Below are positions 38,818-54,539 of a stretch of 64,000 bases of DNA, one piece after another. The translations under genes were made by a program, and so were the position numbers. The first letter of the stretch is position 1; every line of letters starts with the position of its first letter. The DNA is from Vreelandella profundi (GTDB lineage: Bacteria > Pseudomonadota > Gammaproteobacteria > Pseudomonadales > Halomonadaceae), in the NCBI RefSeq assembly GCF_019722725.1, contig NZ_CP077941.1, forward strand, positions 868,001 to 932,000, written 5' to 3'. The notes below the pieces were generated by a model, which ran no database searches, was not told the DNA's origin, and worked only from the letters and a program-made list of their open reading frames with translations.

Positions 38818-39508
38818 CGCGTTCCTGCAGCCGTTGTTTGGTACGTCGGGCCAGCCATTCAGAGGCGATCAATGAGAATAGGGCGATGATAATAGCGATA
38901 ATACACAGCCGCGCTGCCGCTGATTCCTGGCCGGGCGTCTGGATCAGCGTATAGAGGGCTAGCGGCAAGGTACGTGTTTCACTGGGGATATTGGAGGCAA
39001 ACGTGATGGTGGCGCCAAACTCGGAAAGAGCGCGGGCAAAGGCCAAGACGGTGCCCGTCAGCAGGCCTGGAATGGCCAATGGCAGCGTAATGGTGGTAAA
39101 CACTCGCCAGCGATTGGCGCCTAGCGTCCGCGCTGCGGCTTCAAGTTTGGGGTCCACCGCTTCCAATGATAGGCGTAATGCTCGTACCAATAATGGAAAT
39201 GCCATCACGCCGCTGGCAACGGCGGCGCCTTGCCATGTGAAGGGTAGCGATACGCCGAGAGTGGCGTATAACCACTGACCGACCATCCCTTGTCGACCGA
39301 GCGACACTAAGAGTAAATAGCCGACTACCACAGGCGGCAGCACCAGCGGCAGATGAATAAGGCCATCGACGATGGATTTGCCTCTGAAGTCGTGTCGGGC
39401 TAACCACCAGGCGACCGCAATGCCCGGCGGTAAAATCCAGGCCACGGCCGCTAGGCCAATGAGTAGACTAAGGCGGATAGCTTCCCATTCGGCCGGCGAC
39501 AGTATCAC
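38807..39508 (-). CDS. modB: Molybdate ABC transporter permease ModB
   Basis: A 233-residue permease with about six hydrophobic helices and the EAA loop (EAAARTLGANRWRVFTTITLP) that contacts ModC. FARALSEFGATITFASN is typical of ModB. It overlaps modA by four bases and modC by 11. Confidence 0.94.
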   Translation of the reverse strand: MILSPAEWEAIRLSLLIGLAAVAWILPPGIAVAWWLARHDFRGKSIVDGLIHLPLVLPPVVVGYLLLVSLGRQGMVGQWLYATLGVSLPFTWQGAAVASGVMAFPLLVRALRLSLEAVDPKLEAAARTLGANRWRVFTTITLPLAIPGLLTGTVLAFARALSEFGATITFASNIPSETRTLPLALYTLIQTPGQESAAARLCIIAIIIALFSLIASEWLARRTKQRLQERDAY

Positions 39509-40290
39509 GGGCTGCTAATGTCGGTGTCGAAACCATAGTCAGCAAAAATAGTCAGCGCTTCTTCGCTCGCTAACCACTCGCGCAGCGCCACGGCCGCGTT
39601 GTTTTGCTCTGCCCCTATCAGTGCAATGGGGTAGGTGATGGGGTCATGGCTTGAGTTGGGAAATAACCCGAGTACCCGCACGCGGTCACTCGCAAAGGCA
39701 TCTGTTTGATACACAATGCCAAGCGGTGTTTCCTGTCGTTCTACCAGCGTTAACGCCGCGCGTACGTCGTTGCCGCGTGCAAGCCTTGGCTCAAGCTCCC
39801 CCCACTCACCGAGGAATTCCAGCGCCTGCTGGGTGTAGATGCCGGCCGGCACGTGATCCGGGTCGCCGACGGAAAGACGGTCACGATCTTCTAGCAGCGA
39901 AGCAATGCGTGCCTCGTCGCCCGGGACGAACTGCTCCGGCAGGTCAGGGCTTGCTGAGACCAGCGCTAAACGATTCTGGAGCAAGTCGCTGCGCTGTTGG
40001 ATGTTGACGCCTTGCTCTTCGAGCCAGTCCATCCACTGCACGTTGGCAGATAAGAATAGATCCGTTGGGCTACCATTGGCGATTTGTCGAGCAAGCGTCG
40101 AGGACGATGCATAAATGGGCGTCACGTCAACGTCATGCTGAGCTTCATAGACGGCAATGGCGTCATTGAGTGCATCGGTGAGCGAGGCGGCAGCGGCGAC
40201 CTGAATATGGTCTGTGGCAAAGGCTGAGGTGGGAAGCGCCAGCGCTAGCACAGTGGTTAATAAACGGCGATTCATAGCATGGATAAGCAT
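39505..40290 (-). CDS. modA: Molybdate-binding protein ModA
   Basis: A 261-residue periplasmic protein with a signal peptide (cleavage near AFA-T). It shows the molybdate-site blocks AAAASLTDALND (about 33-44) and YASSSTLARQI. First gene of modABC. The start is either 40290 or the in-frame ATG at 40275; neither has a strong Shine-Dalgarno. A ModE-type palindrome ends 12 bases upstream of 40290. Confidence 0.93.
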   Translation of the reverse strand: MLIHAMNRRLLTTVLALALPTSAFATDHIQVAAAASLTDALNDAIAVYEAQHDVDVTPIYASSSTLARQIANGSPTDLFLSANVQWMDWLEEQGVNIQQRSDLLQNRLALVSASPDLPEQFVPGDEARIASLLEDRDRLSVGDPDHVPAGIYTQQALEFLGEWGELEPRLARGNDVRAALTLVERQETPLGIVYQTDAFASDRVRVLGLFPNSSHDPITYPIALIGAEQNNAAVALREWLASEEALTIFADYGFDTDISSP

Positions 40291-40301
40291 TGTACTGATT
40301 C

Positions 40302-40325
40302 CGTTATTACCATTTGGATATAGCG
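40302..40325 (-). promoter_or_regulatory. Candidate ModE operator
   Basis: Minus-strand CGCTATAT-N8-TAATAACG is a near-palindrome matching the ModE box pattern (CGnTATAT spaced from a TATAACG-like half). It lies between modE and modA, right at the modA start. Confidence 0.65.
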
Positions 40326-40372
40326 GAGATTACACAAAACGGCTCATCAGCTCAATACGTTAATGGGCACGC

Positions 40373-40750
40373 TCATGGATGGGCAGGGCTGACCGGCGCC
40401 AATAGCGACAGCAGCGCCTGGGCATCAGCCGAGCCCTCCAGCGAGAGCTGGCGTTCCAACGCGCGGTAGTGAGTCAGCACCTGCTTGCCAAGCTCCGTAA
40501 GATGGGCGCCGCCACGCTCGTTACCGCCAGAGCTGGTTGACACGAGAGGGGATGAAAAGTGGTTGTTCATGGTGTCGATGAGCTGCCAAGCTTTTTTGTA
40601 GCTCATCTTGAGTGTGCGTCCAGCGGCAGAAATGGAGCCTGTCTGGCTAATCATTTCTAGCAGCTCCGCCTTGCCCGGCCCAATAATCACGTCACGGTGT
40701 AGCACCAAACGTAATTGATACGTTGGCTTTAAATGGTGGGTCCGTGTCAT
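40373..40750 (-). CDS. modE: ModE-type DNA-binding regulator lacking the molybdate-binding domain
   Basis: A 125-residue protein equal to the N-terminal winged-helix domain of ModE (GSISAAGRTLKMSYKKAWQLIDTMNN, about residues 37-62). Full ModE proteins (about 260 residues) carry two C-terminal molybdate-binding TOBE modules, absent here. It therefore may sense molybdate through a partner or act constitutively. The start at 40750 has AGGGG seven bases upstream; an in-frame ATG at 40780 is weaker. Upstream of and parallel to modABC. Confidence 0.86.
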   Translation of the reverse strand: MTRTHHLKPTYQLRLVLHRDVIIGPGKAELLEMISQTGSISAAGRTLKMSYKKAWQLIDTMNNHFSSPLVSTSSGGNERGGAHLTELGKQVLTHYRALERQLSLEGSADAQALLSLLAPVSPAHP

Positions 40751-40774
40751 GTAAAGCCCCTTGCACATGGAAGT

Positions 40775-40795
40775 TTTCATATGGCTTTCATATGG
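40775..40795. repeat. Tandem direct repeat upstream of modE
   Basis: TTTCATATGG occurs at 40775-40784 and again at 40786-40795, 25 bases before the modE start. The 11-base period places both copies on the same helix face, so a regulator site is possible. Confidence 0.45.
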
Positions 40796-41421: not shown

Positions 41422-42147
41422 TTAGGGTGTAGATCTTACGTAGAGCCACCGTACATCGACCCCGAATGAATAAACTAATGACACTAGCGCGCTGAGCGCT
41501 AGTAGATTAGCCATTAGCGGTGAGCTGAGCGGCGTTAGCGCTAGCAGTAGCGCCGCCACTTGCCAAACGCATACTACTTTGCGACGAAAGCTGGCAAACA
41601 GGGGGGCGGTTAGCCACTTGAGTCGCCAGCCCGCCATCACAAACAGATAGCGCATGCCGCCAATGAGCAACACCCAGGCGCCCAGCGATTCAAACTCCCA
41701 CAGCCCGACGCACAGCAGCATAATCAGCAGGGCATCTAGCTCCATGTCAAAGCGCGCGCCAAAGCTTGAGTGGCTGCGCGTGTATCTCGCAACCCAGCCA
41801 TCCACGCCGTCAAGCAGCAGCGCTATTACCGCAATCAGCAGCCACTGCCAAATAGCGCCCTTAAAGGCACCCGCGAGCAGGCCAGCAGCGACTATGGCCA
41901 CCAGTATCCCGCGTATCAGCGTGACGCGATTTGCCCATCCCAGCGCCCCATGGGGCCAGAAAATTAGAATCAGTATAGAAATGAACGCGTAGAAACCACC
42001 GGCCACCCACCAGTTGCTGGAAGCCAGCATGAGTAACGGCAGGGCATTGCCAATGATAATTAGTGCTAGGCTGCCTAAAAGCAGTTCAAAGGCGGTATAA
42101 AGCGACTTGTGCAAAGTGCAGGGAGACGCGTTTGAGAAAAGCGGCAT
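41422..42147 (-). CDS. CDP-alcohol phosphatidyltransferase family membrane protein
   Basis: A 241-residue membrane protein with about six hydrophobic segments. It contains the full family signature D(x)2DG(x)2AR(x)8G(x)3D(x)3D, in DGVDGWVARYTRSHSS and GARFDMELD. It should transfer a phosphatidyl or other CDP-linked group to an alcohol acceptor. It is not obviously PgsA or PssA. It is divergent from the pterin-like cluster at 42.5 kb and may belong to it. Confidence 0.86.
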   Translation of the reverse strand: MPLFSNASPCTLHKSLYTAFELLLGSLALIIIGNALPLLMLASSNWWVAGGFYAFISILILIFWPHGALGWANRVTLIRGILVAIVAAGLLAGAFKGAIWQWLLIAVIALLLDGVDGWVARYTRSHSSFGARFDMELDALLIMLLCVGLWEFESLGAWVLLIGGMRYLFVMAGWRLKWLTAPLFASFRRKVVCVWQVAALLLALTPLSSPLMANLLALSALVSLVYSFGVDVRWLYVRSTP

Positions 42148-42492: not shown

Positions 42493-43473
42493 ATGCTGGC
42501 GCCTGACTACGCCACTGCCTTTTGGGTGACCAACCCCCAGCAAGGCGAGATGCGGCGTGAAATACTCAAGCCCCCAGGGCAAGATGAAGTGCATGTACGC
42601 ACCTTATACAGCGGGGTTAGCCGGGGTACCGAGTCGTTGGTATTCACTGGCCGTGTCCCCGAGAGCGAGTTTGCACGCATGCAGGCCCCTTTTCAAAAAG
42701 GGGAATTTCCTGGCCCGGTGAAATACGGGTACTGCAGCGTTGGGCTTGTCGAGCAAGGTCCCAGTGAACTACTGAATAAATCCATTTTTTGTCTGTTTCC
42801 CCACCAAGATCACTATGTGGTGCCTGCCTCGGCGGTCATTCCCATTCCCGCTAATGTGCCTGCTCAGCGCGCGGTGCTGGCTGCTAATATGGAAACGGCA
42901 GTTAACGGCGTGTGGGATGCAGAGCCCATGCTGGGCGAACAGGTTTGTGTCATTGGTGCGGGCGTAATAGGCGCTTTAGTCGCCTATTTGTGCAACCAAA
43001 TTCCCGGTGTCAACGTACACCTAATCGATATTAACCCTGAGCGCGAAGCGATTGCCGCTCATTTAGGGGTGGCGTTTAGTACGCCCGACCAGGCCCCTCA
43101 TAACCAGGACTGCGCTATTCACGCCAGCGGGCATCCTGACGGGCTGCGTCAGGGGCTTGACCTATTGGGTAACGAGGGGCGGCTCATTGAGATGAGCTGG
43201 TTCGGCGAAGGTGACGTGACGCTGCCTTTAGGCGGCGCCTTTCATTCCCAGCGTTTGACGCTGCGCGCCAGCCAGGTCGGCCAGCTTCCCGCGAAACTGC
43301 TTTCCCGCTGGGACTATCGTCGCCGCTTAACGCTAGCGCTAAGTTTGTTGGCCGACGAACGGCTGGACGTTTTAGTGAGTGGTGAAAGCGATTTTTACGA
43401 TTTTTCCGCGCTTGCACCGCATTTGTTGGGGCCGGGAGGCACCGCGCTGTGCCACCGATTACGCTATTCGTAA
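42493..43473 (+). CDS. MDR-superfamily dehydrogenase (BchC-like, non-zinc type)
   Basis: A 326-residue medium-chain dehydrogenase/reductase. The N-terminal TLYSGVSRGTESL motif and KYGYCSVG match BchC-like members; the usual catalytic-zinc cysteines are absent. The Rossmann motif is VCVIGAGVIGALVAYL (about 146-161). Probably oxidises or reduces a cyclic or sugar-linked alcohol. The start at 42493 follows AAAGGA six bases away; the frame extends to a TTG at 42466. First gene of a plus-strand set continuing with the PTPS-like gene. Confidence 0.83.
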   Translation: MLAPDYATAFWVTNPQQGEMRREILKPPGQDEVHVRTLYSGVSRGTESLVFTGRVPESEFARMQAPFQKGEFPGPVKYGYCSVGLVEQGPSELLNKSIFCLFPHQDHYVVPASAVIPIPANVPAQRAVLAANMETAVNGVWDAEPMLGEQVCVIGAGVIGALVAYLCNQIPGVNVHLIDINPEREAIAAHLGVAFSTPDQAPHNQDCAIHASGHPDGLRQGLDLLGNEGRLIEMSWFGEGDVTLPLGGAFHSQRLTLRASQVGQLPAKLLSRWDYRRRLTLALSLLADERLDVLVSGESDFYDFSALAPHLLGPGGTALCHRLRYS

Positions 43474-43499
43474 CTATTTTTTGATAACAAGGAGTCTCT

Positions 43500-43898
43500 A
43501 TGTATCGTTTATGCGTTCGTGACCATTTTATGATTGCGCATAGCTTTAAAGGCGAGATTTTTGGTCCTGCCCAGCGTACCCACGGCGCCACCTATGTTGT
43601 GGATGTGGTTTTTCAACGCCCTGAGCTGGATGAAGATGGCTTAGTGATCGATATCGGCCTGGCGAGTGAGACGGTAAAAGAAGTGCTTGCGGGCTATAAC
43701 TTTCGCAATTTGGACGAAGAATCCGAGTTTTCAGGCAAAAATACCACCACGGAATTTATGGCCAAGGCGATTTTCGACCGGCTCGCCGGCGCGATTGGCG
43801 AGGGTAAAATGGGCCAAACGGCCCGTGGTATTACCCATATGGAAATCAAACTCCACGAGTCTCATGTGGCCTGGGCAAGTTTCGAAGGCGCGCTATGA
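43500..43898 (+). CDS. 6-pyruvoyl-tetrahydropterin synthase (QueD)-like protein with altered active site
   Basis: A 132-residue T-fold protein. The overall PTPS pattern is present (FMIAHSFKGEIFGPAQRTHG, then VIDIGLASETVKEVL, and LHESHVAWASFEG with the substrate-anchoring Glu120). However, the third zinc-ligand His is Ala30 (HGA instead of HGH), the catalytic Cys before HGH is missing, and the DH pair is replaced by YN (AGYNFRNLD). H14 and H28 remain. It therefore should not do standard PTPS or QueD chemistry. It overlaps the glycosyltransferase gene by four bases. Confidence 0.82.
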   Translation: MYRLCVRDHFMIAHSFKGEIFGPAQRTHGATYVVDVVFQRPELDEDGLVIDIGLASETVKEVLAGYNFRNLDEESEFSGKNTTTEFMAKAIFDRLAGAIGEGKMGQTARGITHMEIKLHESHVAWASFEGAL

Positions 43899-45832
43899 AT
43901 CGACATTTCACGTTAATCGTTGCTGGCGACCCGGCTCAGCGCACCGGTGGCTATCTGTACGATGCGCACATCGTCGCAGCCCTGCGTGAGCAGGGCTGGG
44001 AGATTGACGTGATGGGCCTTTCTGGCGTGTTTCCTGACCCCGATAGTGAAGCGAAACAGCAGCTCACCAAAGCGCTTGAGTCGTTGCCGCAAGGGGCGTC
44101 GGTGGTGATTGATGGGCTGGCCATGGGGGCATTGCCAGAGGTGATTGCCCTGCACGGCCAGCGCTTGGATATTACCTCGCTGCTGCATCATCCATTAGGT
44201 GATGAGCTGGGCCTGAACGCGGCCGACCAGAAGCACTTTCATCGCAGCGAGCTTGCGGCCCTGGCGGGCGTTGCGCGCATTATCGTCACTAGCCATTTTA
44301 CCGCTCGGCGTGTGCTGGAACTGGCAACGAACTATGCCATGCCGCTCAATGCCGACATTTCGGTCGTTGAGCCGGGTGTGGCTCAAGCGCCGGTAAGTCC
44401 CGCCGACGAGCCAGGCGAACCGCTGCGGCTATTGTGTGTAGCGACACTAACGCCCCGCAAAGGGCAGGATGTTTTAGTTCAGGCGTTGGCAGGCGTAGCG
44501 GGGGATAACTGGCAGTGCGACTGCTATGGCGGTGTGCGTGACGCTGCGTTTACCCAGCGCGTTCAGCAGCTTATCGAGCAACATCAGCTTGCCGGTCGAG
44601 TGATCTTGCACGGTGAATGCGACGATAAAACCCTTGAAGCAGCGTATCAGCGTGCCCACGCCCTCGTGCTGCCGTCATGGTATGAAGGGTACGGCATGGT
44701 GATTACTGAGGCGCTGGCCCACGGCCTGCCGGTGATTACCACTACCGGCGGTGCGCTGCGCGATACGCTGCCGCCGGGTGCGGGCTTGAGCGTTCCGCCG
44801 GGTGATAGCGAGGCGCTGCAAGATGCCCTTAGCCAGTTTTGCGGTGACCCTGTTTTACGCCATCAGCTGCGTCAAGGCGCTGCGCAAGCACGCCATAACC
44901 TTAATGACTGGCAGGCAGCGGGCGCTGACTTTGCTGCTGCGTTAACCACGCCAAGGGCTCAGCTGGGCTTTAGTGCCGGCAGCCAGTTTGCTGCAGACTG
45001 GCTGACGCTGCGCGAAGAGGCAGACATTGCCGCGCGCAGCCAACCGCTGGCCATGCAGGCGTCTGAGTGGCTGAGCGCGCGCGCAGCATCACCCCGGATA
45101 GCGGATCTTGGCTGCGGTCGGGGCAGCAATATGCGTTTTCTTGCCCCGCACCTGGGCAGCTACCAGCGTTGGAAATTAATTGATCACGACGCTGGGTTGT
45201 TGGAGCAGGCCCAGCAGCGAGCGGTTGAATTTAGCGATTGCCAGGGGCTACCCGTGGCAGTTGAAACACACTGCGTATCGCTTGAGCCGCTGAGCGATGT
45301 GCCGATGAATGATTCACATTTAGTGACCGCGTCAGCGCTGCTGGATTTGGTTTCACAGCAGTGGATTGATGAACTGGTCGCTCGCTGTGCTCATCAGCAT
45401 CAGGCGCTATTGATTGCCTTAAGCGTGACCGGCGAGTGGCACTTTACGGATGCCAGCGGCACCCCGGTATTAGACGATGAAGATCACTGGATGCTGGCGA
45501 TGTTTATGGCTCACCAGCAGCGTGATAAAGGGCTAGGCGCCGCGCTGGGTGGCCAGGCCCATGATGCCTTGATCGCCGCCTTAGAAAAGGCGCAGTTCCG
45601 CGTTGAACAAGCTGAAACGCCTTGGCATCTAAGCGCTGGCAATCGCGAGCAGCTGTCGTTGATGTCGGCGCTGCTTGAAGGCTGGGCGCTGGCCGTAACA
45701 GAACAAGTACCTGAGTCATCGGCACGTATTGCCGCCTGGTTGCAGCATCGTCAGCAGGCGGTTGCTGGCGGTGAATTAGGTGTCTGGGTGGGGCATCGTG
45801 ATGTGTTCGCCATGCCCCAGGCAGAGGCGTAA
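43895..45832 (+). CDS. Glycosyltransferase family 4 - SAM methyltransferase fusion
   Basis: A 645-residue two-domain protein. Residues about 1-350 form a GT-B glycosyltransferase: TPRKGQDVLVQAL starts the donor domain, and EGYGMVITE (264-272) is the EX7E motif of GT4. Residues about 365-640 form a class I methyltransferase with motif I IADLGCGRGSNM (402-413) and the following acidic residue in LIDHDAG. One polypeptide could thus glycosylate and methylate the same product. It overlaps the PTPS-like gene (ATGA) and is followed four bases later by the membrane protein. Confidence 0.88.
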   Translation: MNRHFTLIVAGDPAQRTGGYLYDAHIVAALREQGWEIDVMGLSGVFPDPDSEAKQQLTKALESLPQGASVVIDGLAMGALPEVIALHGQRLDITSLLHHPLGDELGLNAADQKHFHRSELAALAGVARIIVTSHFTARRVLELATNYAMPLNADISVVEPGVAQAPVSPADEPGEPLRLLCVATLTPRKGQDVLVQALAGVAGDNWQCDCYGGVRDAAFTQRVQQLIEQHQLAGRVILHGECDDKTLEAAYQRAHALVLPSWYEGYGMVITEALAHGLPVITTTGGALRDTLPPGAGLSVPPGDSEALQDALSQFCGDPVLRHQLRQGAAQARHNLNDWQAAGADFAAALTTPRAQLGFSAGSQFAADWLTLREEADIAARSQPLAMQASEWLSARAASPRIADLGCGRGSNMRFLAPHLGSYQRWKLIDHDAGLLEQAQQRAVEFSDCQGLPVAVETHCVSLEPLSDVPMNDSHLVTASALLDLVSQQWIDELVARCAHQHQALLIALSVTGEWHFTDASGTPVLDDEDHWMLAMFMAHQQRDKGLGAALGGQAHDALIAALEKAQFRVEQAETPWHLSAGNREQLSLMSALLEGWALAVTEQVPESSARIAAWLQHRQQAVAGGELGVWVGHRDVFAMPQAEA

Positions 45833-45836
45833 GCCG

Positions 45837-47780
45837 ATGGCCCAGGCGCCAAGACCCCACACGCGGCTACGCGCGATGATAGGCAGCCCATGGCTTCGCC
45901 GTGGCGTTGTCAGCGTCGTCTTGCTGGGGGCCGTTGCACTGTGGGTTGATCCTAGGGCGATTGTTGATGAGATACAGCGTTTTTCTGCCGGCTGGGTAGT
46001 CCTGGCGTTTGTTATCAGTACGCTACAGATCATGCTTAGCGCTTGGCGTTGGCAGTTCACTGCGGGGCTCATTAACGTGCCGCTGAGATTCGGCTATGCG
46101 CTGCGCGAGTATTACCTCGCGCTGTTAGTCAATCAGCTGTTGCCGGGGGGAGTGCTGGGCGATGCAGGCCGCGCTCACCGCCATGCCCGCCAAGCGCAGT
46201 CCCGGGGCAAGGCCTGGCGAGCGGTGATTATTGAGCGTGCGTCGGGCCAGCTAGCGTTAGTGCTATTAACGCTAACGGCGCTGCTGTTTTCGCCGCTTTG
46301 GCATACCGCTTTGGGCATGTCCGTGATCGCGGCGGTTGGCCTCAGCATAGTGGCGGGGCTAGGTGTAGCGATTGCCGGCGGGCTGCTGCTGCGCCATCGC
46401 TTTAACGCCTGGTCTCGGCGACTGCCAGACTGGAGCCAAGCTTTAGCGCGCGATATTAAGCGTGGTTTATTGCAGCGCGGCGTCTGGCCTCTGCAGCTGC
46501 TGTCGTCGCTGATGATTGTCTTGAGCTATGGTTTAGTGATGGTCTGCGCAGCCCGTGCGATTGGCGTTGAGCTGCCCGTATTTCAGCTGCTTGCGCTCAC
46601 GCCGGTATTGCTCTTAGCAATGGTGATCCCTTTGTCGGTCGCGGGCTGGGGGCTGCGTGAAGGTGCCGCGGCCGGTGTTTGGGCGCTGGTGGGGTTGCCG
46701 GCAGCCCAGGGCGTGGCGGTATCGCTGGCTTACGGTGTGTTAGTGTTGCTGGCCAGTTTGCCGGGTATCTGGGTTGCGCTGAGCCGTCGTGAAAAGGCGT
46801 CGCCCTCAGGGAGCAGCCTTCCTCAGCAGCATATCGAACAAGGTGTCCTCACCGCAGCGGAAGGTTCGCGTGGGCGGACGCAGCGCTTTATCAAGCGTGT
46901 CGATGGGCGTCATTTTGAGTCCCGGCCTGCCGGAGCCAATCAGCAGGGGGGCGATGAGCAGATGCAAACGGTCAACGGCGTGCGCTTCGATGAACTGAGA
47001 AACCGTAATGCCGCCACCTTCCACCAGCACGCGATGCAAGCCTCTCTCGGCCAACAGCGCAATGATATCTTGAGGGTTGAACTGGCTGTTAGCGTTCAGC
47101 GGCAGCACGCAGCGTTCAAGGTGGGAATGGGACGTTGGCACCGACACCTCCGGCCCCACAATATGCAGCGTCGGTGCGGCATCGGTGCACATCAGGGCCA
47201 AGCTGCTTGGTGCCCGCCCGCGAGGGTCCAGCAAGACGCGGGCAGGGTGCTCGCCGCTAACGTGGCGCACCGTCAACTGCGGGTTGTCGGCACAGGCGGT
47301 TCCCGCGCCGATCACCACGGCATCAACCATGGCGCGCAGCCGGTGCAGATGCACCAAGCTTTCGTCGCCGTTGATATAGTGCGAATGACCGCTTTCTGTC
47401 GCGATGCGCCCATCAAGGCTTTGCCCCAGCTGAGCAACAACCCATGCCGATTGGCTAGCCAGCGGCGTCAGGCAGTCCAACAGCTCACGGGCTTGCGCGC
47501 TAAGGGTCAGAGACGTTGCCCACTCACCGGTAGGCATCAGTTTGATCGACACGGAGCTGGCGCGCCGGTGGCGCAGCGCCAGCAGCCACTCCCAGGCATC
47601 TGCCGCCTCAATACGGCCATCTTGCGGGGTGACAGACGAGGTAGCGCCCGTGTTGACGTTGGGATTGGGCATGACGCCTCCGTGTTAAAAGTTACGTTTC
47701 ATCATGCGGGCGCTGCTTGGTTAAGAGCAAGCACTTCGAGTCAGCACTTCGCAGCAAGTAGCGCACAGCGCAAGACCTAA
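45837..47780 (+). CDS. UPF0104/lysylphosphatidylglycerol-synthase-TM-like membrane protein, with anomalous readthrough tail
   Basis: Residues about 1-318 are a flippase-like membrane domain with about eight hydrophobic helices and the family motif NQLLPGGVLGDAGRAHRH (about 99-116); such proteins are linked to lipid or sugar-lipid transfer. The recognisable protein ends near WVALSRRE (46791), but no in-frame stop follows until 47780. The extra about 328 residues are the antisense of ribD and look artificial. A TGA in another frame at 46790-46792 suggests a lost stop by a one-base change, or a sequencing error. Confidence 0.7.
   Translation: MAQAPRPHTRLRAMIGSPWLRRGVVSVVLLGAVALWVDPRAIVDEIQRFSAGWVVLAFVISTLQIMLSAWRWQFTAGLINVPLRFGYALREYYLALLVNQLLPGGVLGDAGRAHRHARQAQSRGKAWRAVIIERASGQLALVLLTLTALLFSPLWHTALGMSVIAAVGLSIVAGLGVAIAGGLLLRHRFNAWSRRLPDWSQALARDIKRGLLQRGVWPLQLLSSLMIVLSYGLVMVCAARAIGVELPVFQLLALTPVLLLAMVIPLSVAGWGLREGAAAGVWALVGLPAAQGVAVSLAYGVLVLLASLPGIWVALSRREKASPSGSSLPQQHIEQGVLTAAEGSRGRTQRFIKRVDGRHFESRPAGANQQGGDEQMQTVNGVRFDELRNRNAATFHQHAMQASLGQQRNDILRVELAVSVQRQHAAFKVGMGRWHRHLRPHNMQRRCGIGAHQGQAAWCPPARVQQDAGRVLAANVAHRQLRVVGTGGSRADHHGINHGAQPVQMHQAFVAVDIVRMTAFCRDAPIKALPQLSNNPCRLASQRRQAVQQLTGLRAKGQRRCPLTGRHQFDRHGAGAPVAQRQQPLPGICRLNTAILRGDRRGSARVDVGIGHDASVLKVTFHHAGAAWLRASTSSQHFAASSAQRKT
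46806..47672 (-). CDS. RibD C-terminal-type pyrimidine reductase
   Basis: A 288-residue protein whose residues about 75-285 are the RibD_C/DHFR-like reductase: VAQLGQSLDGRIAT, DAVVIGAGTACADNPQLTVR and RVLVEGGG. The zinc deaminase domain of bifunctional RibD is missing, replaced by a 75-residue unrelated segment. It should reduce a ribosyl to a ribityl group with NADPH, acting before any deamination as in fungi and archaea. Divergent from the GTP cyclohydrolase II gene, with 140 bases between them. Confidence 0.87.
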   Translation of the reverse strand: MPNPNVNTGATSSVTPQDGRIEAADAWEWLLALRHRRASSVSIKLMPTGEWATSLTLSAQARELLDCLTPLASQSAWVVAQLGQSLDGRIATESGHSHYINGDESLVHLHRLRAMVDAVVIGAGTACADNPQLTVRHVSGEHPARVLLDPRGRAPSSLALMCTDAAPTLHIVGPEVSVPTSHSHLERCVLPLNANSQFNPQDIIALLAERGLHRVLVEGGGITVSQFIEAHAVDRLHLLIAPLLIGSGRPGLKMTPIDTLDKALRPPTRTFRCGEDTLFDMLLRKAAP

Positions 47781-47812
47781 AATCTCCCACGCCAGGAAGC
47801 CAGGAGGCACAC

Positions 47813-48916
47813 ATGTATCAGATTGAACGCGCTATTTTCGATATTCGTCGTGGTTTGCCCGTGGTGATTAATGCCGGCAACCAGCGTTTATTAGTGCAGG
47901 CGCTGGAAGGCAGTGAGTCGGTAGATGCCCTCGCGCAGTTGGCCGGTAGCCCGCCTTCACTAGTGCTTACCCGCCATCGCTTAGCGGCTATTGGTGTGGC
48001 GGTCACCGCTGAGGCGGCAAGCTTACCGTTAGCGGCGAACATTGGCGCCGGCGAGCTGCATCGCTTAGCCACCTCAGAAGATCAGCAGTCAGCGGGCAGT
48101 GAGCAATTAAAGGGCTTAAAGCCCGCGGCGCTAGCGGAAGTGGGGGCAGTGACGCTGATGCGTCGCGCTCTGCTAATACCGGCAGCGCTCTGCGCTTTTG
48201 TGAGCGAAAAAGCCGCCGCGGATATTGAGCAGCAGCTTGCCGAAGGGCGGCTGCTAGCCGTTAATGCCGAAGATGCTCAGCAGTGCTTGGCCGGTGCGCC
48301 GGGCATGCTTAAGCGGGTGAGCGAAGCGCAAATTCCGTTGGAAGAAGCGGCCGACAGCCGCTTTGTGCTCTTTCGTGAGCCGGACGGCCTGCGCGAGCAT
48401 GTGGCCGTGGTCATCGGTAAGCCTGAAGAGTGGGAAGCCGCGGTGCCGCTGCGTATGCATTCGGCCTGCTTAACGGGAGATCTCTTCGCCAGCCTGCGCT
48501 GTGACTGTGGAGAACAGCTGCGCAATGCCGTGAAGGATATCCAGGCCATGGGGGGCGGTGTGCTGCTCTATTTGGCCCAAGAGGGGCGAGGTATTGGCTT
48601 GGCTAACAAGCTGCGTGCCTATACGTTGCAAGACGGCGGCCTGGATACGGTGGATGCCGACCAAGTGTTGGGTTTCGGTGATGATGAGCGCCAGTATAGC
48701 GTCGCGGTGGATATGCTTAGTGCCCTTAAAATCGATCAGGTGCAGCTGCTGACCAATAATCCGCTGAAAATGGACGCCCTGCGCCAAGGCGGCATCGACG
48801 TGGTTTCGCGCCAAGCGCTCTACGGCAGCGTTACCGATCATAATCAGCGCTACCTAAACGCCAAGGCAACCCGTGGCGGGCATCTGCTAGAAGACGTATT
48901 AAGTAGCCAGCGCTAA
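47813..48916 (+). CDS. ribA: GTP cyclohydrolase II with degenerate DHBP-synthase-like N-terminus
   Basis: A 367-residue protein. The C-terminal about 195 residues are a complete GTP cyclohydrolase II: HSACLTGDLFASLRCDCGEQ with three zinc cysteines, EGRGIGLANKLRAY and TNNPLKMDALRQGGIDVV. It opens GTP, releasing formate and pyrophosphate, to a diaminopyrimidine ribotide. The N-terminus (IERAIFDIRRGLPVVI) recalls DHBP synthase (RibB) but lacks the DDEDRENEGD active site and is shortened. It is thus a RibBA relative that has lost RibB activity. It probably feeds the local pathway rather than housekeeping riboflavin. Confidence 0.9.
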   Translation: MYQIERAIFDIRRGLPVVINAGNQRLLVQALEGSESVDALAQLAGSPPSLVLTRHRLAAIGVAVTAEAASLPLAANIGAGELHRLATSEDQQSAGSEQLKGLKPAALAEVGAVTLMRRALLIPAALCAFVSEKAAADIEQQLAEGRLLAVNAEDAQQCLAGAPGMLKRVSEAQIPLEEAADSRFVLFREPDGLREHVAVVIGKPEEWEAAVPLRMHSACLTGDLFASLRCDCGEQLRNAVKDIQAMGGGVLLYLAQEGRGIGLANKLRAYTLQDGGLDTVDADQVLGFGDDERQYSVAVDMLSALKIDQVQLLTNNPLKMDALRQGGIDVVSRQALYGSVTDHNQRYLNAKATRGGHLLEDVLSSQR

Positions 48917-48940
48917 CCGCAACCGTCGCTAGCCGGAGCG

Positions 48941-49720
48941 TTAGTCTTGCTCTGCTAGCGGCGGCAGCCGGGCGGTTTCTGCTACTACCATGGCAAGTTG
49001 GCTTGCGTAGTGACGCACTAACCGCTCGCCTAATTCAGCGCTAGCGTGAGTGGCATCGCCTGCCACGCCCTGGGCGCTTAAGTCTTCCGCTAGCCATGCA
49101 AACGCCGCGGCGCCTTCTGCACTGACGAGTGCGTTGCCCTGTGGCGCCGCGGTGGGGGCGGCTTGGTAGTCATCAAGCTGTACAAGCGACGGGGCTAAGT
49201 GTCGCATCATGGCGGTCTCCAGCAGCCCGCCGTGTAATCCATAGCGTAGTTCTTCAGCAGCAACGGCACCTTCAAGAGGAGGTAGCCGCGTATAGGTCGC
49301 TTTTACCACACGCATCGCATATCGCCGCCGCAGCGTTAGCCCGGCGATGTCCATCACCGCTTTGTTACCGCCATGGCTGTTTAGCAGCACCAGGCGGCGA
49401 ATGCCTGTCTGGGCTAGGCTATCGCCGTAGGCTTCCAAGGTGGCAATGGCAAGCGGCGCGGGCAAGCTCAGCGTGCCGGGAAAGCTTGCGTGCTCGTCAC
49501 TGGCGCCTACGGAAATAGGCGGTAGGCAAATGACATTAAGCGAGTCATCCAGCTGCTCCAACATGGCCGCCTGAAGGCCTAGACCAATAGTGAGATCAGT
49601 GGCTAACGGCAGGTGAGTGCCGTGCTGTTCTATGGCACCGAGCACCAGTACCGCCACCGGGTCACGCTGGGCGATATCGGCGAGTTGTGAAGAGGTGAGC
49701 GCTTGCCAGTGGTAAATCAT
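48941..49720 (-). CDS. Creatininase-family amidohydrolase
   Basis: A 259-residue metal-dependent hydrolase with the family motifs GAIEQHGTHLPLATD (about 28-42), NSHGGN (about 114-119) and GLHGGLLETAMM (about 160-171). The Glu/His/Asp set binds two metal ions. Relatives include creatininase, mycofactocin peptidase MftE and ArfB, the deformylase for a formamidopyrimidine made from GTP. Next to GTP cyclohydrolase II and RibD, action on a GTP-derived pyrimidine amide is the most likely. Convergent with ribA, 24 bases away. Confidence 0.88.
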   Translation of the reverse strand: MIYHWQALTSSQLADIAQRDPVAVLVLGAIEQHGTHLPLATDLTIGLGLQAAMLEQLDDSLNVICLPPISVGASDEHASFPGTLSLPAPLAIATLEAYGDSLAQTGIRRLVLLNSHGGNKAVMDIAGLTLRRRYAMRVVKATYTRLPPLEGAVAAEELRYGLHGGLLETAMMRHLAPSLVQLDDYQAAPTAAPQGNALVSAEGAAAFAWLAEDLSAQGVAGDATHASAELGERLVRHYASQLAMVVAETARLPPLAEQD

Positions 49721-49780: not shown

Positions 49781-51355
49781 TCAGACATCTGGATACCACA
49801 CGTAATTCCAGGTTTCGCTAACCGGTTCGCCGTTGACAGTCAGCCTGAGGCTAACATCGCTAGGCTGATCGCTGGCGGGCAGTCGGAAGCTGGCGCGCCA
49901 GCCCTTATTAGGTAGCGCGGTGACTTGAGGCAACAGCACCTCACCGTTTTGGATACTGATATCAAGCTCAACCGGTTGGTCGGCTGCTAGCTTATCTAGC
50001 GCACCCCCCTGGAAATCGACAATAAATTGGCGCTGCTCTGATGAGTCGGAATCTTCCTGCGTGATAATGCCGACACGGCCATGGCGGGTGCGAATGACTT
50101 GCCCAAGCATATTGTTTTCTGGCTGAGCATTGAGCGTATAGGTAAGGTAGTGCAGGCGGCGAGACTCACCGGCCTTCAGCGCGTCATCGGCAACCCAGTA
50201 GGCAACGATATTGTCGTTAGTTTCATCGTCAGTGGGGATCTCAACCAGCTCAACGTGACCAGGGCCCCAGTCGTCTAAGGGCTCCACCCACTGGCTGGGG
50301 CGCCGATGATATTGGGCTTCCGTATCTAAGTAGCGGTTAAAATCGCGCTCGCGCTGCATGAGACCAAACCCCTGTGGCGAGGCATCAACAAACACTGACG
50401 TGTGAAGATCATCAGGATTGTTCAGCGGTCGCCAGATCCACTCATCGCTACCGGTATGCATTAGTAGCCCATCTGAATCGTGTACCTGCGGGCGAAAATC
50501 GTCCGGGCGCTCGCGGCTCGCTTCGCCGTACGTGAACATGCTGGTGAGTGGGGCAACGCCTAGCTTGGCGATGTCGTCTCGCGCAAACAGCTCGGCTTCT
50601 ACTTCAACCTGCGTATCGTCACCGGGCCGGATAATAAAGCGATAGGCGCCGCTGACAGAAGGGCTATCCAGCAGTGCCAATAGCTCAAGGTGATCGGCAT
50701 CGGCGGCGGGCTTATAAAACCAAAATTCGCGAAACGCTGGAAACTCTTCGCCTTCAGGGGAAGTCGTATCGATCGCCAGCCCTCGCGTCGAGAGCCCGTA
50801 CACTTGATCACGTCCTACGATGCGAAAATAGCTCGCGCCAAGGAAAACCGCTACTTCGTCTGCGTACTCTTCGTTATTGAGTGGGTAGTGCAGGCGGAAT
50901 CCCGCATGACCGCTACCCGATAAATCCTGTTCCTTCAGCGCTTCGGCATTGCCGTCGTAGTTGTAATCCTCGGGCGCAAACGGCAGGGAGGCGACGCTGC
51001 CGTTCTCAATAACATTGAGCGCAATGGGGGTTTGGAAAAGGAAGCCGCTGTGGAAAAGCTGTAAGTTAAACGGGCTTTCGTCTTTCCAATAAGCATTTTC
51101 TGGATCAAAGCGAATTTGCCGATAGGTATCGTAACTAAGGTCACGCAGCGCATCGGGCAGCGTCTCTTCGGGGGCTTGGTACGTATTTTTAGCAAGCTGC
51201 TGCGCGCAATCTATCACAGCGTTGAAGTGCCGATCATCGTCGGCAAACGCAGCCGATGCGATCGTACAGCCGAGTAGTACTATCAAATTGCCAGCACCCC
51301 ATCTAATCGTCTGTCCTCTACCAACCGGCTCTCTACCAACACTGTGAACACACAT
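49781..51355 (-). CDS. opgG: Periplasmic glucan biosynthesis protein OpgG/MdoG
   Basis: A 524-residue periplasmic protein with a signal peptide (LIVLLGCTIASAAFA). It has the OpgG beta-sandwich blocks (YDTYRQIRFDPENAYW, GASYFRIVGRDQVYGLSTRGLAID, FREFWFYKP). It is needed for branching or assembly of osmoregulated periplasmic glucans. The usual partner opgH is not in the window. AAAGGA about eight bases upstream supports the start. Divergent from a sulfatase-like gene that may modify the same glucans. Confidence 0.93.
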   Translation of the reverse strand: MCVHSVGREPVGRGQTIRWGAGNLIVLLGCTIASAAFADDDRHFNAVIDCAQQLAKNTYQAPEETLPDALRDLSYDTYRQIRFDPENAYWKDESPFNLQLFHSGFLFQTPIALNVIENGSVASLPFAPEDYNYDGNAEALKEQDLSGSGHAGFRLHYPLNNEEYADEVAVFLGASYFRIVGRDQVYGLSTRGLAIDTTSPEGEEFPAFREFWFYKPAADADHLELLALLDSPSVSGAYRFIIRPGDDTQVEVEAELFARDDIAKLGVAPLTSMFTYGEASRERPDDFRPQVHDSDGLLMHTGSDEWIWRPLNNPDDLHTSVFVDASPQGFGLMQRERDFNRYLDTEAQYHRRPSQWVEPLDDWGPGHVELVEIPTDDETNDNIVAYWVADDALKAGESRRLHYLTYTLNAQPENNMLGQVIRTRHGRVGIITQEDSDSSEQRQFIVDFQGGALDKLAADQPVELDISIQNGEVLLPQVTALPNKGWRASFRLPASDQPSDVSLRLTVNGEPVSETWNYVWYPDV

Positions 51356-51494: not shown

Positions 51495-53075
51495 ATGATC
51501 CGATTATTATCAACGATACTGCTGCTCAATCTACTGTTTATTGCGCCGCTGTGGTGGCGTTTTAGTGATATCAGCTCACATCTGCTTGCTTGGGAAGCGT
51601 TGATCATCGCGTCTTTAATGCTGTTGCTGCCACGCGGCAAGGCGCGCCTCATCGCGGCAGTGGGATTGGTGAGCTGGGTGGTATTGGCCACCGCTACTAG
51701 CCTGGGAACCGCCGCGACGCATATGGCCTTTGCCCGGCCACTTAATCTCTATCTTGATTTACCTTTACTCAGCGCTGTTTATAACTTGCTGGAAGGTAAT
51801 CTCGGGCAATTTTTGGCCGTGTGCGCAATGCTGGCCGGCGCCGCCTTATTGCTTGCTATTACCGCGGGCTTGGCATGGTTGCTACTGCCACCGGCATCTT
51901 TTGCTATTAAGCGCTTGCCCCGAGCGGTTGCATTAGCGCTGCTGGTTATTGCGACCAGCGGTGCCGCGCTTGAGCTTAAAGGTATGCGGTTAGTGGATAG
52001 CGCCCGCCTGCCGTTGGTCAACATCACGCGTTTTCAATGGCAGCAAATAACCGCTACCCATGCTGCTCGCAGTGAATTTACCGCACAGCTGAAAGATGCA
52101 CCTATGCAGGCCCAGGCCTTACCAGGGCTTGAAGGACATAATGTGCTGCTGACTTTCATTGAGTCTTACGGCATCTCGGCGCTGAATGACCCGCGCTATG
52201 CTGACGTGCTGCTGCCCACTCTCGCCGAGATGCAGCAGCGTTTAGAAGCGCGAAATCTTCACGTTGTGTCAGGTATGTTAGAAGCCCCGATTCGCGGCGG
52301 GCAGTCGTGGCTGGCGCACGCGACCACGCTCAGCGGCCGGTGGATCGATAACCAGCTGTGGTATCGGCTTATGTTAGACAGCGACCACTCCACGTTGATT
52401 GATGATTTTCGTGCCACCGGGCAGCGTACGCTGGCCGTTATGCCCGCTATTACCATGGCGTGGCCGGAAGGCAAGATTTACGGTTTCGATGAAATAGTCG
52501 CTGCTAAAGATATCGACTACGCCGGTCCCGCCCTTAACTGGGTGACGATGCCCGATCAGTTCACCCTCGATTACACTCAAAAACACCTGTTAGGCGACTC
52601 GCCGGTGTTTGCACAGCAGGCGTTAATTTCGAGCCATGCGCCCTGGACACCGATACTGCCGGTCATTGAAGACTGGTCGTTAATCGAGGATGGCCGCATT
52701 TTTACACCGTGGGAAAACGCCGGCGATCCACCAGAAGTGCTGTGGAAAGACATCGAACGCATTCGCGATCACTATGCCTGGTCGGTGGACTACGCTGTAA
52801 AAGTCACCGGGCGCTGGGCGGAGCGGGTGGTTGACGATAAGACGCTGATGATCGTTCTTGGTGATCATCAGCCCGCGCCGTTAATTACCGGTGGTAATGC
52901 TAGTGCGGCGGTGCCGGTGCATATCATCAGTGCAGACCCAGCGCTTCTGGCACCGTTTATTGCCCGCGGGTTTGTACCCGGCACGCTGCCTGCGCTCGAA
53001 CAGGCTGCCAATGCGCCCAGAATGAGCGAACTGCGTCACTGGCTACAGGCTGATTTCGGTGAGCCTGTTCGCTAA
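51495..53075 (+). CDS. Membrane-anchored sulfatase / phosphoglycerol-transferase-like enzyme
   Basis: A 526-residue protein with four N-terminal hydrophobic helices (to about residue 160) and a periplasmic alkaline-phosphatase-superfamily domain. VLLTFIESYG carries the first metal ligand, RGGQSWLAHATTLSG the region of the nucleophile, and MIVLGDHQPAPL the DH metal pair. This layout is that of LtaS/OpgB-type phosphoglycerol or phosphoethanolamine transferases. Since it is divergent from opgG, decoration of periplasmic glucans is a reasonable guess, not proven. Confidence 0.8.
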   Translation: MIRLLSTILLLNLLFIAPLWWRFSDISSHLLAWEALIIASLMLLLPRGKARLIAAVGLVSWVVLATATSLGTAATHMAFARPLNLYLDLPLLSAVYNLLEGNLGQFLAVCAMLAGAALLLAITAGLAWLLLPPASFAIKRLPRAVALALLVIATSGAALELKGMRLVDSARLPLVNITRFQWQQITATHAARSEFTAQLKDAPMQAQALPGLEGHNVLLTFIESYGISALNDPRYADVLLPTLAEMQQRLEARNLHVVSGMLEAPIRGGQSWLAHATTLSGRWIDNQLWYRLMLDSDHSTLIDDFRATGQRTLAVMPAITMAWPEGKIYGFDEIVAAKDIDYAGPALNWVTMPDQFTLDYTQKHLLGDSPVFAQQALISSHAPWTPILPVIEDWSLIEDGRIFTPWENAGDPPEVLWKDIERIRDHYAWSVDYAVKVTGRWAERVVDDKTLMIVLGDHQPAPLITGGNASAAVPVHIISADPALLAPFIARGFVPGTLPALEQAANAPRMSELRHWLQADFGEPVR

Positions 53076-53129: not shown

Positions 53130-54539
53130 ATGATTCAGCCGGTAATTTTAAGCGGTGGTAGCGGCACTCGGCTTTGGCCGCTATCAAGAGAGCAAATGCC
53201 TAAACAGTTTTTGCGCTTAACGTCGCCGCAGAGTTTGTTGCAGCAAACGCTCAGCCGCTTGATCGGGCTGACCGATAAAGCCCCGATGCTGATGGGGCAT
53301 CAGAGTCACCGGTTCTTAATGGCCGAACAGCTGCGCGAAATGAATCAAGCGGCCACGCTGGTGCTGGAGCCCGAAGGGCGTAATACCGCACCCGCAATTG
53401 CCTGTGCGGCATTGCTGGCGCGGCAAGCCGGCGATGATCCGCTACTCTTGGTGCTGCCGGCGGATCATGAGATAGGCGATGTTAGCGCGTTTCAGCACAG
53501 CGTTGCGCTTGCTACGCCGCTCGCCGAAGCAGGCTACCTGGTGACGTTTGGCGTCGTGCCGACCCAGCCTGAAACCGGCTATGGCTACATTGGCTGCGGT
53601 GCGCCTTTAGAGGGCGGGCATCATCTTGCCGCCTTTATCGAAAAGCCCGACGCCGAGCGCGCCGCTGAGCTGGTAGCCAGCGGCAACTACCTGTGGAACA
53701 GCGGCATGTTTTTGCTGCGTGCCTCCAGCTATTTAGAGCAGTTAGAGCGCCTGCAGCCGACGATGCTCGCGGCCTGCGAGGAGGCGGTTAGCTCGGCCCA
53801 TCGCGACTTAGATTTTCTGCGCCTGGGCGAAGAAGCTTTTTGCCGCTGTCCGGCGGACTCTATCGACTATGCGGTCATGGAACACTGCGAGCGCGCCGCG
53901 GTGGTGCCACTGAGAGCGCAGTGGAGCGACATCGGTAGCTTCGATGCGCTGTGGGCAACAGTGGCGTGCGATGAGGCTGGCAACGCTGTCAAAGGCGATA
54001 CCTGGTTAACCGATACCCAGGACTCGCTGGTGATTGCCGAGCACCGTTTGGTGGCAACGCTGGGTGTGCAGAATCTGATTGTTGTTGAGACATCTGACAG
54101 CGTATTAATCGCTCACCGTGAGCAGGCGCAGCAGGTCAAACAGCTGGTGGCGGCACTCTCTCAGGCGGGGCGTCGCGAGCCTGAATGCGCGCCTCAGGTT
54201 CAGCGTCCTTGGGGAAGCTTTCAAGCGATGGATAGCGGCGAGCGTTATCAGGTAAAGCACATTACCGTGAAACCCGGTGGGCGGCTTTCGCTGCAGCGCC
54301 ACCACCATCGCGCTGAACATTGGGTGGTGGTGAGCGGCACGGCACGGGTAACGCTTGAAGAGCGGAGTTTCTTAGTCAGTGAAAATCAGTCGACCTATAT
54401 TCCCATCGGGGCGCTTCACCGGCTGGAAAACACCGGCAAGATTCCTCTTGAACTGATCGAGGTGCAGTCGGGAAGCTATCTGGGTGAGGACGATATTGAG
54501 CGCTTAGACGATGTGTATGCTCGCAACAATAACGAGTGA
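53130..54539 (+). CDS. manC: Bifunctional mannose-1-phosphate guanylyltransferase / mannose-6-phosphate isomerase
   Basis: A 469-residue cytosolic enzyme making GDP-mannose for polysaccharides. The nucleotidyltransferase domain opens with LSGGSGTRLWPLSREQMPKQ (about 7-26), has FIEKPDAE near residue 170, and ends near 345. The C-terminal cupin isomerase domain has RPWGSF, GGRLSLQRHHHRAEHW and the metal histidines. The length is typical of AlgA/XanB/CpsB. No capsule cluster is adjacent. A tandem repeat with several ribosome-binding-like copies precedes it. Confidence 0.95.
   Translation: MIQPVILSGGSGTRLWPLSREQMPKQFLRLTSPQSLLQQTLSRLIGLTDKAPMLMGHQSHRFLMAEQLREMNQAATLVLEPEGRNTAPAIACAALLARQAGDDPLLLVLPADHEIGDVSAFQHSVALATPLAEAGYLVTFGVVPTQPETGYGYIGCGAPLEGGHHLAAFIEKPDAERAAELVASGNYLWNSGMFLLRASSYLEQLERLQPTMLAACEEAVSSAHRDLDFLRLGEEAFCRCPADSIDYAVMEHCERAAVVPLRAQWSDIGSFDALWATVACDEAGNAVKGDTWLTDTQDSLVIAEHRLVATLGVQNLIVVETSDSVLIAHREQAQQVKQLVAALSQAGRREPECAPQVQRPWGSFQAMDSGERYQVKHITVKPGGRLSLQRHHHRAEHWVVVSGTARVTLEERSFLVSENQSTYIPIGALHRLENTGKIPLELIEVQSGSYLGEDDIERLDDVYARNNNE

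Follow-up and report, generated by a model that had tools for sequence, protein, structure and literature searches.

A recurrent gene set around a PTPS-IV protein in Vreelandella profundi and its putative GTP-derived, pterin-type product

The window analyzed here is a stretch of 64,000 nucleotides from Vreelandella profundi (contig NZ_CP077941.1, positions 868,001 to 932,000), which contains genes for a PTPS-IV protein, a BchC-like dehydrogenase, a glycosyltransferase-methyltransferase fusion, a RibD-type reductase, a GTP cyclohydrolase II, a flippase-like membrane protein, and a CDP-alcohol phosphatidyltransferase (Table 1). The pathway to which these genes belong is real, widespread, partly noticed before, and uncharacterized. 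The gene set goes beyond chance: it recurs across classes of Proteobacteria and in Actinomycetes, and its core is found in two haloarchaea. We consider it likely that the genes serve one GTP-derived product that retains a 2-amino group. Our preferred reading, to which we give a probability of about 0.48, is that this product is a pterin-type compound that is glycosylated, methylated, linked to a lipid, and flipped outward; its chemical steps, the lipid link, and the end use are what we infer. A GTP-derived pyrimidine branch with glycosyl and methyl decoration and a membrane link had been proposed in a preliminary description of this DNA, and it is still the best reading of the gene set.

A profile of the PTPS-IV protein was run against 398 Pseudomonadota genomes, with at most 10 candidates scored per genome, and matched 59 of them at 1e-15. 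Twenty-seven of these matches, that of the V. profundi genome included, are strong (4.4e-51 or better), and the remaining 32 are weak (6e-20 or worse); the one weak locus that was opened (L164; L and G numbers are our handles for loci and genomes) was without other cluster genes. A profile of the cluster RibD matched 29 of the same 398 genomes at 1e-45. Twenty-four of these score 266 to 334 bits and are all PTPS-IV genomes; the other five, at 159 to 167 bits, are not. Of the 27 PTPS-IV genomes, 24 gave a match to the distinct RibD, as did none of the 371 others (table, 24/3/0/371; Fisher test, 1.5e-35, which, like our other co-occurrence tests, treats genomes as independent and ignores phylogeny). 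Only seven candidates per genome were scored in the RibD scan, and misses do not prove absence. In one genome (G016), the RibD copy lies approximately 62 kb from the PTPS gene.

The surroundings of the PTPS gene were sampled in the 26 other strong Pseudomonadota genomes, counting genes up to 10 kb away; one of these loci is cut by a contig end. The dehydrogenase is present in all 26 loci, the glycosyltransferase in 25, the methyltransferase in 24, and RibD in 22, and this five-gene core, PTPS included, is complete in 19 of the 26. The phosphatidyltransferase and OpgH each occur in 12 loci, the flippase and RibA in 11 each, FkbM in 8, cytochrome b561 in 7, OpgG and the creatininase in 6 each, the sulfatase-fold protein in 5, and YceI in 4. 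Loci with the set occur in Alpha-, Beta-, and Gammaproteobacteria as well as in Actinomycetes; the genes do stay together in other genomes. The full set, including the phosphatidyltransferase and the flippase, was seen in Halomonas-type loci, Methyloversatilis (L058 and L060), Thauera (L074), and Streptomyces globisporus (L129), and the two haloarchaeal clusters that were opened (L093 and L133) carry a core of dehydrogenase, PTPS, glycosyltransferase, and methyltransferase. Among 78 relatives, PTPS-IV was found in 45, including 43 of the 49 genomes of the own genus. The related loci are the best 80 of 105. Sixteen of 22 plasmid records were opened, the stretches of L129, L132, and L135 are unannotated and were read by hidden Markov models only, and L144 ends at a contig edge. 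L138, whose contig is as long as that of L011, appears to come from the same genome, and pooled locus counts may repeat genomes. On a contig labeled as a Rhodovulum metagenome-assembled genome (L036), the cluster is Halomonas-like, with 86% PTPS identity, and this contig is probably misbinned.

The reductase gives an indication of the substrate. In Bacillus subtilis RibG, selection of the deaminated substrate is assigned to Lys151. At the equivalent place, the cluster RibD has Gln in 84 and His in 14 of all 98 scorable rows, the window protein (Gln) included; three fragment rows were unscorable (two from L013 and one from L016, frameshifted-looking), and some genomes may repeat among the 98. 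Lys occupies this place in the genome's own other RibD and in the five next-best RibDs, and alignments put Asn there in 6p8c, which was deposited as a reductase acting on an un-deaminated substrate, and in archaeal 2azn. Because of the Gln or His at the Lys151 place, the cluster RibD probably reduces the un-deaminated GTP product, and reduction before deamination would retain the 2-amino group of a pterin. The enzyme resembles 6p8c and 2azn in being a stand-alone reductase domain without Lys at this place, but it differs from both in having Gln or His together with a GQSLDG signature and in its putative role beside, rather than in, riboflavin synthesis. The preliminary description had suggested a pterin- or flavin-like compound; the reductase residue and the co-occurrence favor a pterin-type (2-amino) intermediate over a lumazine- or flavin-type one. 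Its account of the reductase as lacking a deaminase was borne out, with no deaminase domain found in the Pfam scan of the window RibD.

The PTPS-IV protein of the window matched a single PDB entry, 3d7j (SCO6650), with an E value of 2e-49 and 75 of 132 residues identical. Its residues 21 to 25 read FGPAQ, the signature of PTPS-IV, in place of CxxxHGH, with Ala24 in 29 of the 30 aligned sequences. His14, His28, Asp51, Glu85, and Glu120 are kept in all 30 rows. Ala replaces the third zinc His in 29 rows, and no row has the catalytic Cys (Ala in 29 and Glu in one haloarchaeal row). We assume here a mapping of these columns onto the zinc His, catalytic Cys, and pterin-anchoring Glu residues of QueD. 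An identity as QueD or PTPS-I was rejected, since the Cys and the third His are both Ala and the QueD model gives 44 bits against a cut-off of 89.

The core of this observation is already published: neighborhoods of PTPS-IV with PF00925 (GTP cyclohydrolase II) and PF01872 (RibD_C) were reported in 2017 in section 19 of PMC5445326, where the family comprised 561 sequences in a network and where neighbors, and no product, are named. Both neighbors are confirmed here in the window and in the sampled loci. The PTPS-IV subfamily, with SCO6650, shares with the window protein the FGPAQ motif and, according to the same section of PMC5445326, the GTP cyclohydrolase II and RibD_C neighbors; the wider gene set, the RibD residue change, and the link to osmoregulated periplasmic glucan (OPG) genes are added here. 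The cluster can thus no longer be called undescribed as far as this neighborhood and the structure of a relative are concerned. The term still suits the product and the wider gene set, neither of which was found among the papers listed by the literature searches.

Taken together, the gene set can be arranged into a dedicated pathway that would start from GTP and run alongside riboflavin synthesis as a separate branch. Its GTP cyclohydrolase II would yield 2,5-diamino-6-ribosylamino-4(3H)-pyrimidinone 5'-phosphate, which the cluster RibD would reduce before deamination to a ribityl compound with a 2-amino group. PTPS-IV, having lost a zinc ligand, would bind this pyrimidine or a derived pterin through its conserved Glu and help to close or modify the second ring, and the dehydrogenase, glycosyltransferase, and methyltransferase would decorate the compound. 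In the full form of the cluster, as in the window, the CDP-alcohol phosphatidyltransferase would place the compound on a lipid, and the flippase would move the lipid-linked compound to the outer face of the inner membrane. In Proteobacteria, it would be used near periplasmic glucans (OpgG/OpgH and the sulfatase-fold transferase) and membrane electron carriers (cytochrome b561 and YceI).

Several observations weigh against this reading. The phosphatidyltransferase, the flippase, and the cyclohydrolase are each near PTPS in fewer than half of the sampled loci (12, 11, and 11 of 26), and the creatininase is near it in 6; because of the first two counts, the lipid branch may be optional. RibD was not found at 1e-45 anywhere in G086 (where the cluster contig is cut), G382, or G392, nor was it seen in the bacterial loci L132 and L134. 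Six loci have no dehydrogenase (L068, L070, L078, L081, L083, and L087), some of them on short contigs and five of them Competibacter or Contendobacter assemblies. PTPS-IV was not found in 6 of the 49 own-genus genomes, two of which are assemblies less than 72% complete, and 3 of the 16 opened plasmid loci (L090, L096, and L136, all Streptomyces) carry PTPS-IV alone. A simple OPG reading is weakened by three genomes that have MdoH beside the cluster (G012, G047, and G297) but gave no OpgG match, and the opened Actinomycete and haloarchaeal loci showed no OPG genes. The PTPS-IV genes of the three Streptomyces plasmids have another context, near genes for a sigma-70/BTAD regulator, a cupin, and a metallo-hydrolase.

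The archaeal riboflavin route reduces before deamination. No RibD lies within the stretch of either haloarchaeal cluster opened, and this fits the proposed pathway, since the archaeal route would already supply the intermediate; two clusters are few, and the bacterial loci L132 and L134 likewise show no RibD nearby.

The alternative with an appreciable, if lesser, chance of being correct keeps the same 2-amino GTP branch but ends in a glycosylated, pterin-like cofactor or pigment that is soluble or secreted, with the phosphatidyltransferase, flippase, and OPG genes being neighbors that have their own envelope role. The tighter association of the dehydrogenase, PTPS, glycosyltransferase, methyltransferase, and RibD than of the lipid genes (19 versus 11 to 12 of 26 loci) speaks for such a product, but the phosphatidyltransferase and flippase recur with the full set in the Halomonas-type, Methyloversatilis, Thauera, and Streptomyces loci. 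It is improbable that PTPS-IV has a binding or regulatory role only, in a loose envelope neighborhood without a single product. The missing catalytic Cys and zinc ligand, and the Streptomyces plasmids with PTPS-IV alone, would suit that explanation, but the co-occurrence of PTPS-IV with the special RibD and its pairing with the dehydrogenase in every sampled locus argue against it.

Riboflavin, a flavin analogue, or an extra riboflavin precursor is also an improbable product, although homologues of GTP cyclohydrolase II and RibD are in the set. The 3.64-Mb host genome, a single contig, has further PF00925 matches at 3411152 (a 212-amino-acid frame) and 1088454 (a 407-amino-acid frame, ribBA-type by length) and a further PF01872 match at 1087035 (a 410-amino-acid frame, a full RibD by length). 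The cluster ribA and ribD copies are therefore additional to other ribA- and ribD-type genes, the presence of which elsewhere in the genome the preliminary description had asked about. Riboflavin supply was rejected on account of these other genes and of the change from Lys to Gln or His at the Lys151 place, and the lack of a deaminase domain in the cluster RibD and its tie to PTPS-IV likewise speak against it. A product similar to F420 or another deazaflavin has the slightest chance of these alternatives. An unpublished remark carried in a passage of PMC5041015 links PTPS-IV to archaeal F420, but the best CofH match in this genome reaches 23 bits against a cut-off of 374, and none was found among the cluster genes scanned; F420 biosynthesis was rejected on this basis.

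The envelope neighbors were examined across the same genomes. In 14 of the 26 sampled loci, MdoH or MdoG is no more than 10 kb away from PTPS. The arrangement differs: these genes are upstream, in divergent orientation, in the alphaproteobacterial-type loci and downstream in the Halomonas-type loci. The binomial P value is 2e-19 at an assumed chance rate of 1.5% per genome, with relatives not being independent, and, with the own genus counted, 10 of 19 genera show the adjacency. Five checked MdoH proteins exceed the NCBIfam model cut-off. OpgG was matched in 109 of the 398 genomes, 22 of the 27 with PTPS-IV versus 87 of the 371 others (Fisher test ignoring phylogeny, 1.8e-9); at most three candidates were scored per genome, and misses do not prove absence. 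The V. profundi genome has at least three OpgG copies (three candidates were scored, and all matched), and its sole OpgH match, at 501074, is away from the cluster. The likeness to opgGH consists in OpgG in the window and MdoH or MdoG at the sampled loci; nothing tying OPG genes to pterin-type genes was found in the literature searched.

The sulfatase-fold protein has a homologue in L066 that passes the PF00884 cut-off (27 bits), and a 19-row alignment shows conserved, metal-site-like residues (E223, S271, D457-H458, and H476). It is presumably comparable to phosphoglycerol or phosphoethanolamine transferases (LtaS/OpgB-type chemistry). A YceI-family gene lies beside the phosphatidyltransferase in the proteobacterial loci L147 (11878-12645), L145, L148, L149, L058 to L060, L069, L073, and L074, and cytochrome b561 genes lie near RibD in L091, L130, L150, and L158.

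The window cyclohydrolase has the zinc Cys triad and Tyr at the switch residue, which we take to give the deformylated product directly. Tyr was found in the window and in 71 scorable locus rows, all from Proteobacteria, and Met at this place only in both Streptomyces rows, L129 and L134; three rows were unscorable (the genome's own ribBA, L013, and L016). Met120 of SCO6655 reportedly gives the formyl product, and the Streptomyces rows agree with this result. L129 and L134 resemble the formamidopyrimidine-forming SCO6655 type, having Met at the switch and a creatininase, whereas the window enzyme has Tyr. The creatininase had been likened to ArfB, a comparison that did not survive: against a cut-off of 180 bits for the ArfB model NF033501, the window protein scores 19.8 bits and six of seven relatives score 16 to 37 bits, the seventh (L058) giving no listed score, and the window cyclohydrolase has the Tyr taken to give the deformylated product directly. 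An ArfB role was rejected on these scores. The switch residue was also rejected as the reason for the creatininase, because the latter occurs beside Tyr-type cyclohydrolases too. In the dehydrogenase, alignment shows Ser at the expected zinc Cys and Tyr-Gly-Tyr at the expected Gly-His-Glu; given the zinc-ligand positions assumed for medium-chain enzymes, this BchC-like protein appears to be without zinc ligands at the aligned places. The phosphatidyltransferase motif is invariant in 23 of 23 aligned proteins. The ATG of the glycosyltransferase-methyltransferase fusion overlaps the PTPS stop codon, and several annotated plasmid loci have, in place of the fusion, one gene for each of the two activities, side by side.

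The UPF0104 membrane protein noted previously is present, but its frame extends past the family domain to 47780, antisense to ribD. Approximately 340 codons lie beyond the domain; 289 of these cover the whole of ribD on its antisense strand (approximately 870 bases), and the stop is 33 nucleotides before the ribA ATG. The same arrangement, with the flippase frame continuing more than 200 codons past the domain over antisense ribD, is found in 47 of 51 Halomonas/Vreelandella loci (L009 to L056 and L137 to L139); the exceptions are L013 and L016, which look frameshifted, L054, which is short, and L036, a contig without the flippase. Outside this group, flippase frames are 290 to 476 amino acids from stop to stop, bar one split fragment and L129, a GC-rich Streptomyces locus whose 1,092-amino-acid frame also runs over ribD. 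In 48 loci of the group, ribD has no TTA or CTA codon and one TCA, versus 213.6 expected from its own third bases, and in eight other genes of the same loci such codons are above expectation. With same-locus codon usage (42 loci), no antisense stops were found versus 331.7 expected, and after thinning to 6 to 21 loci (more than 0.55 to 0.40 apart at fourfold sites), none were found versus 56 to 160 expected (log10 P, -28.0 to -78.6). A GC-rich codon effect was rejected, since A-ending codons are not generally avoided in ribD (A at fourfold sites, 0.097 versus 0.105 to 0.157 elsewhere). Outside the group, the deficit is mild (for 17 nested loci, 30 such codons versus 66 expected, and for 31 others, 92 versus 153) and not clearly tied to nesting, and individual loci without any such codon occur among both kinds.

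The stop of the frame has one shared position inside ribA in 45 of 50 loci (a TGA ending 14 nucleotides into the gene in the printed junctions), a constancy due to conserved ribA codons; in L009, L056, and the window, it stops 23 to 39 nucleotides before ribA. Divergence at fourfold sites is 0.477 in ribD, 0.475 in PTPS, and 0.540 to 0.592 in the other eight genes, and selection on the antisense protein sequence is at most weak, since the ribD value is only slightly below that of most other genes. The open frame over antisense ribD speaks for its translation. We think it rather likely, from these comparisons, that selection acts to let ribosomes run on through antisense ribD as far as ribA rather than to maintain a folded domain, perhaps countering Rho-dependent termination. 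The locus resembles known noncontiguous operons in having an opposite-strand gene, here ribD between the flippase gene and ribA; in the review PMC7154746, the antisense stretch of such operons is described as an internal untranslated region, whereas in this locus it is crossed by a frame that stays open. The most detailed version of our preferred reading is unlikely to be correct in all its parts: an 8-ribityl-pterin-type head group made from GTP, glycosylated and methylated, would sit on a phosphatidyl anchor and be flipped to the outside; in Proteobacteria, the sulfatase-fold enzyme would transfer it to a periplasmic glucan specific to the cluster, where it might serve as a redox group supplied by cytochrome b561; and a translated bridge through antisense ribD would join the Halomonas/Vreelandella operon.

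All eight genes named in the preliminary description were found together in Pfam and NCBIfam scans, and two further genes, recurrent neighbors outside its range, are listed with them in Table 1. Inspection of translations identified a molybdate-transporter-like set (ABC ATPase, permease, and binding protein) with a ModE-like regulator upstream of the cluster (37690-40780) and a mannose-1-phosphate guanylyltransferase-like gene after the sulfatase-fold gene (53130-54539). The latter could supply a sugar donor or be part of another set.

Table 1. Genes of the cluster and its neighborhood, in window positions
Feature	Position	Strand	Basis and remarks
CDP-alcohol phosphatidyltransferase	41422-42147	-	Pfam PF01066; complete D..DG..AR........G...D...D motif
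BchC-like medium-chain (MDR) dehydrogenase	42493-43473	+	NCBIfam bchC, 58 bits (under cut-off of 291); Rossmann motif present
PTPS-IV protein (FGPAQ)	43500-43898	+	Pfam/NCBIfam scan; sole PDB match 3d7j
GT4 glycosyltransferase-SAM methyltransferase fusion	43895-45832	+	Pfam
LPG_synthase_TM/UPF0104 flippase-like protein	45837-47780 (most likely start 45837)	+	Pfam, frame analysis
RibD reductase domain without deaminase	46806-47672	-	Pfam PF01872; antisense, nested within flippase frame
GTP cyclohydrolase II (ribA), PRK08815-like, extra N-terminal region	47813-48916	+	Pfam/NCBIfam
Creatininase-family hydrolase	48941-49720	-	Pfam/NCBIfam; not ArfB per curated model
OpgG/MdoG paralogue	49781-51355	-	Pfam; outside the range of the preliminary description
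Sulfatase/alkaline-phosphatase-fold membrane protein	51495-53075	+	PF00884, 19.9 bits (below cut-off of 25); outside the range of the preliminary description

A dedicated pathway of this kind would explain why genomes that already have ribA and ribD genes carry extra copies. The PTPS-IV family is large and has a solved structure, but no reaction for it was found in the literature searched; its tie to a RibD that probably acts on an un-deaminated substrate gives it a concrete candidate substrate. The flippase/ribD overlap is a long antisense frame that is strongly supported by comparison between loci, and with it the translation of antisense frames in bacteria becomes a question that can be tested directly. 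The envelope neighbors suggest a new lipid or glucan decoration and, if the most detailed version of the preferred reading is true, the product would represent an undescribed class of membrane lipid.

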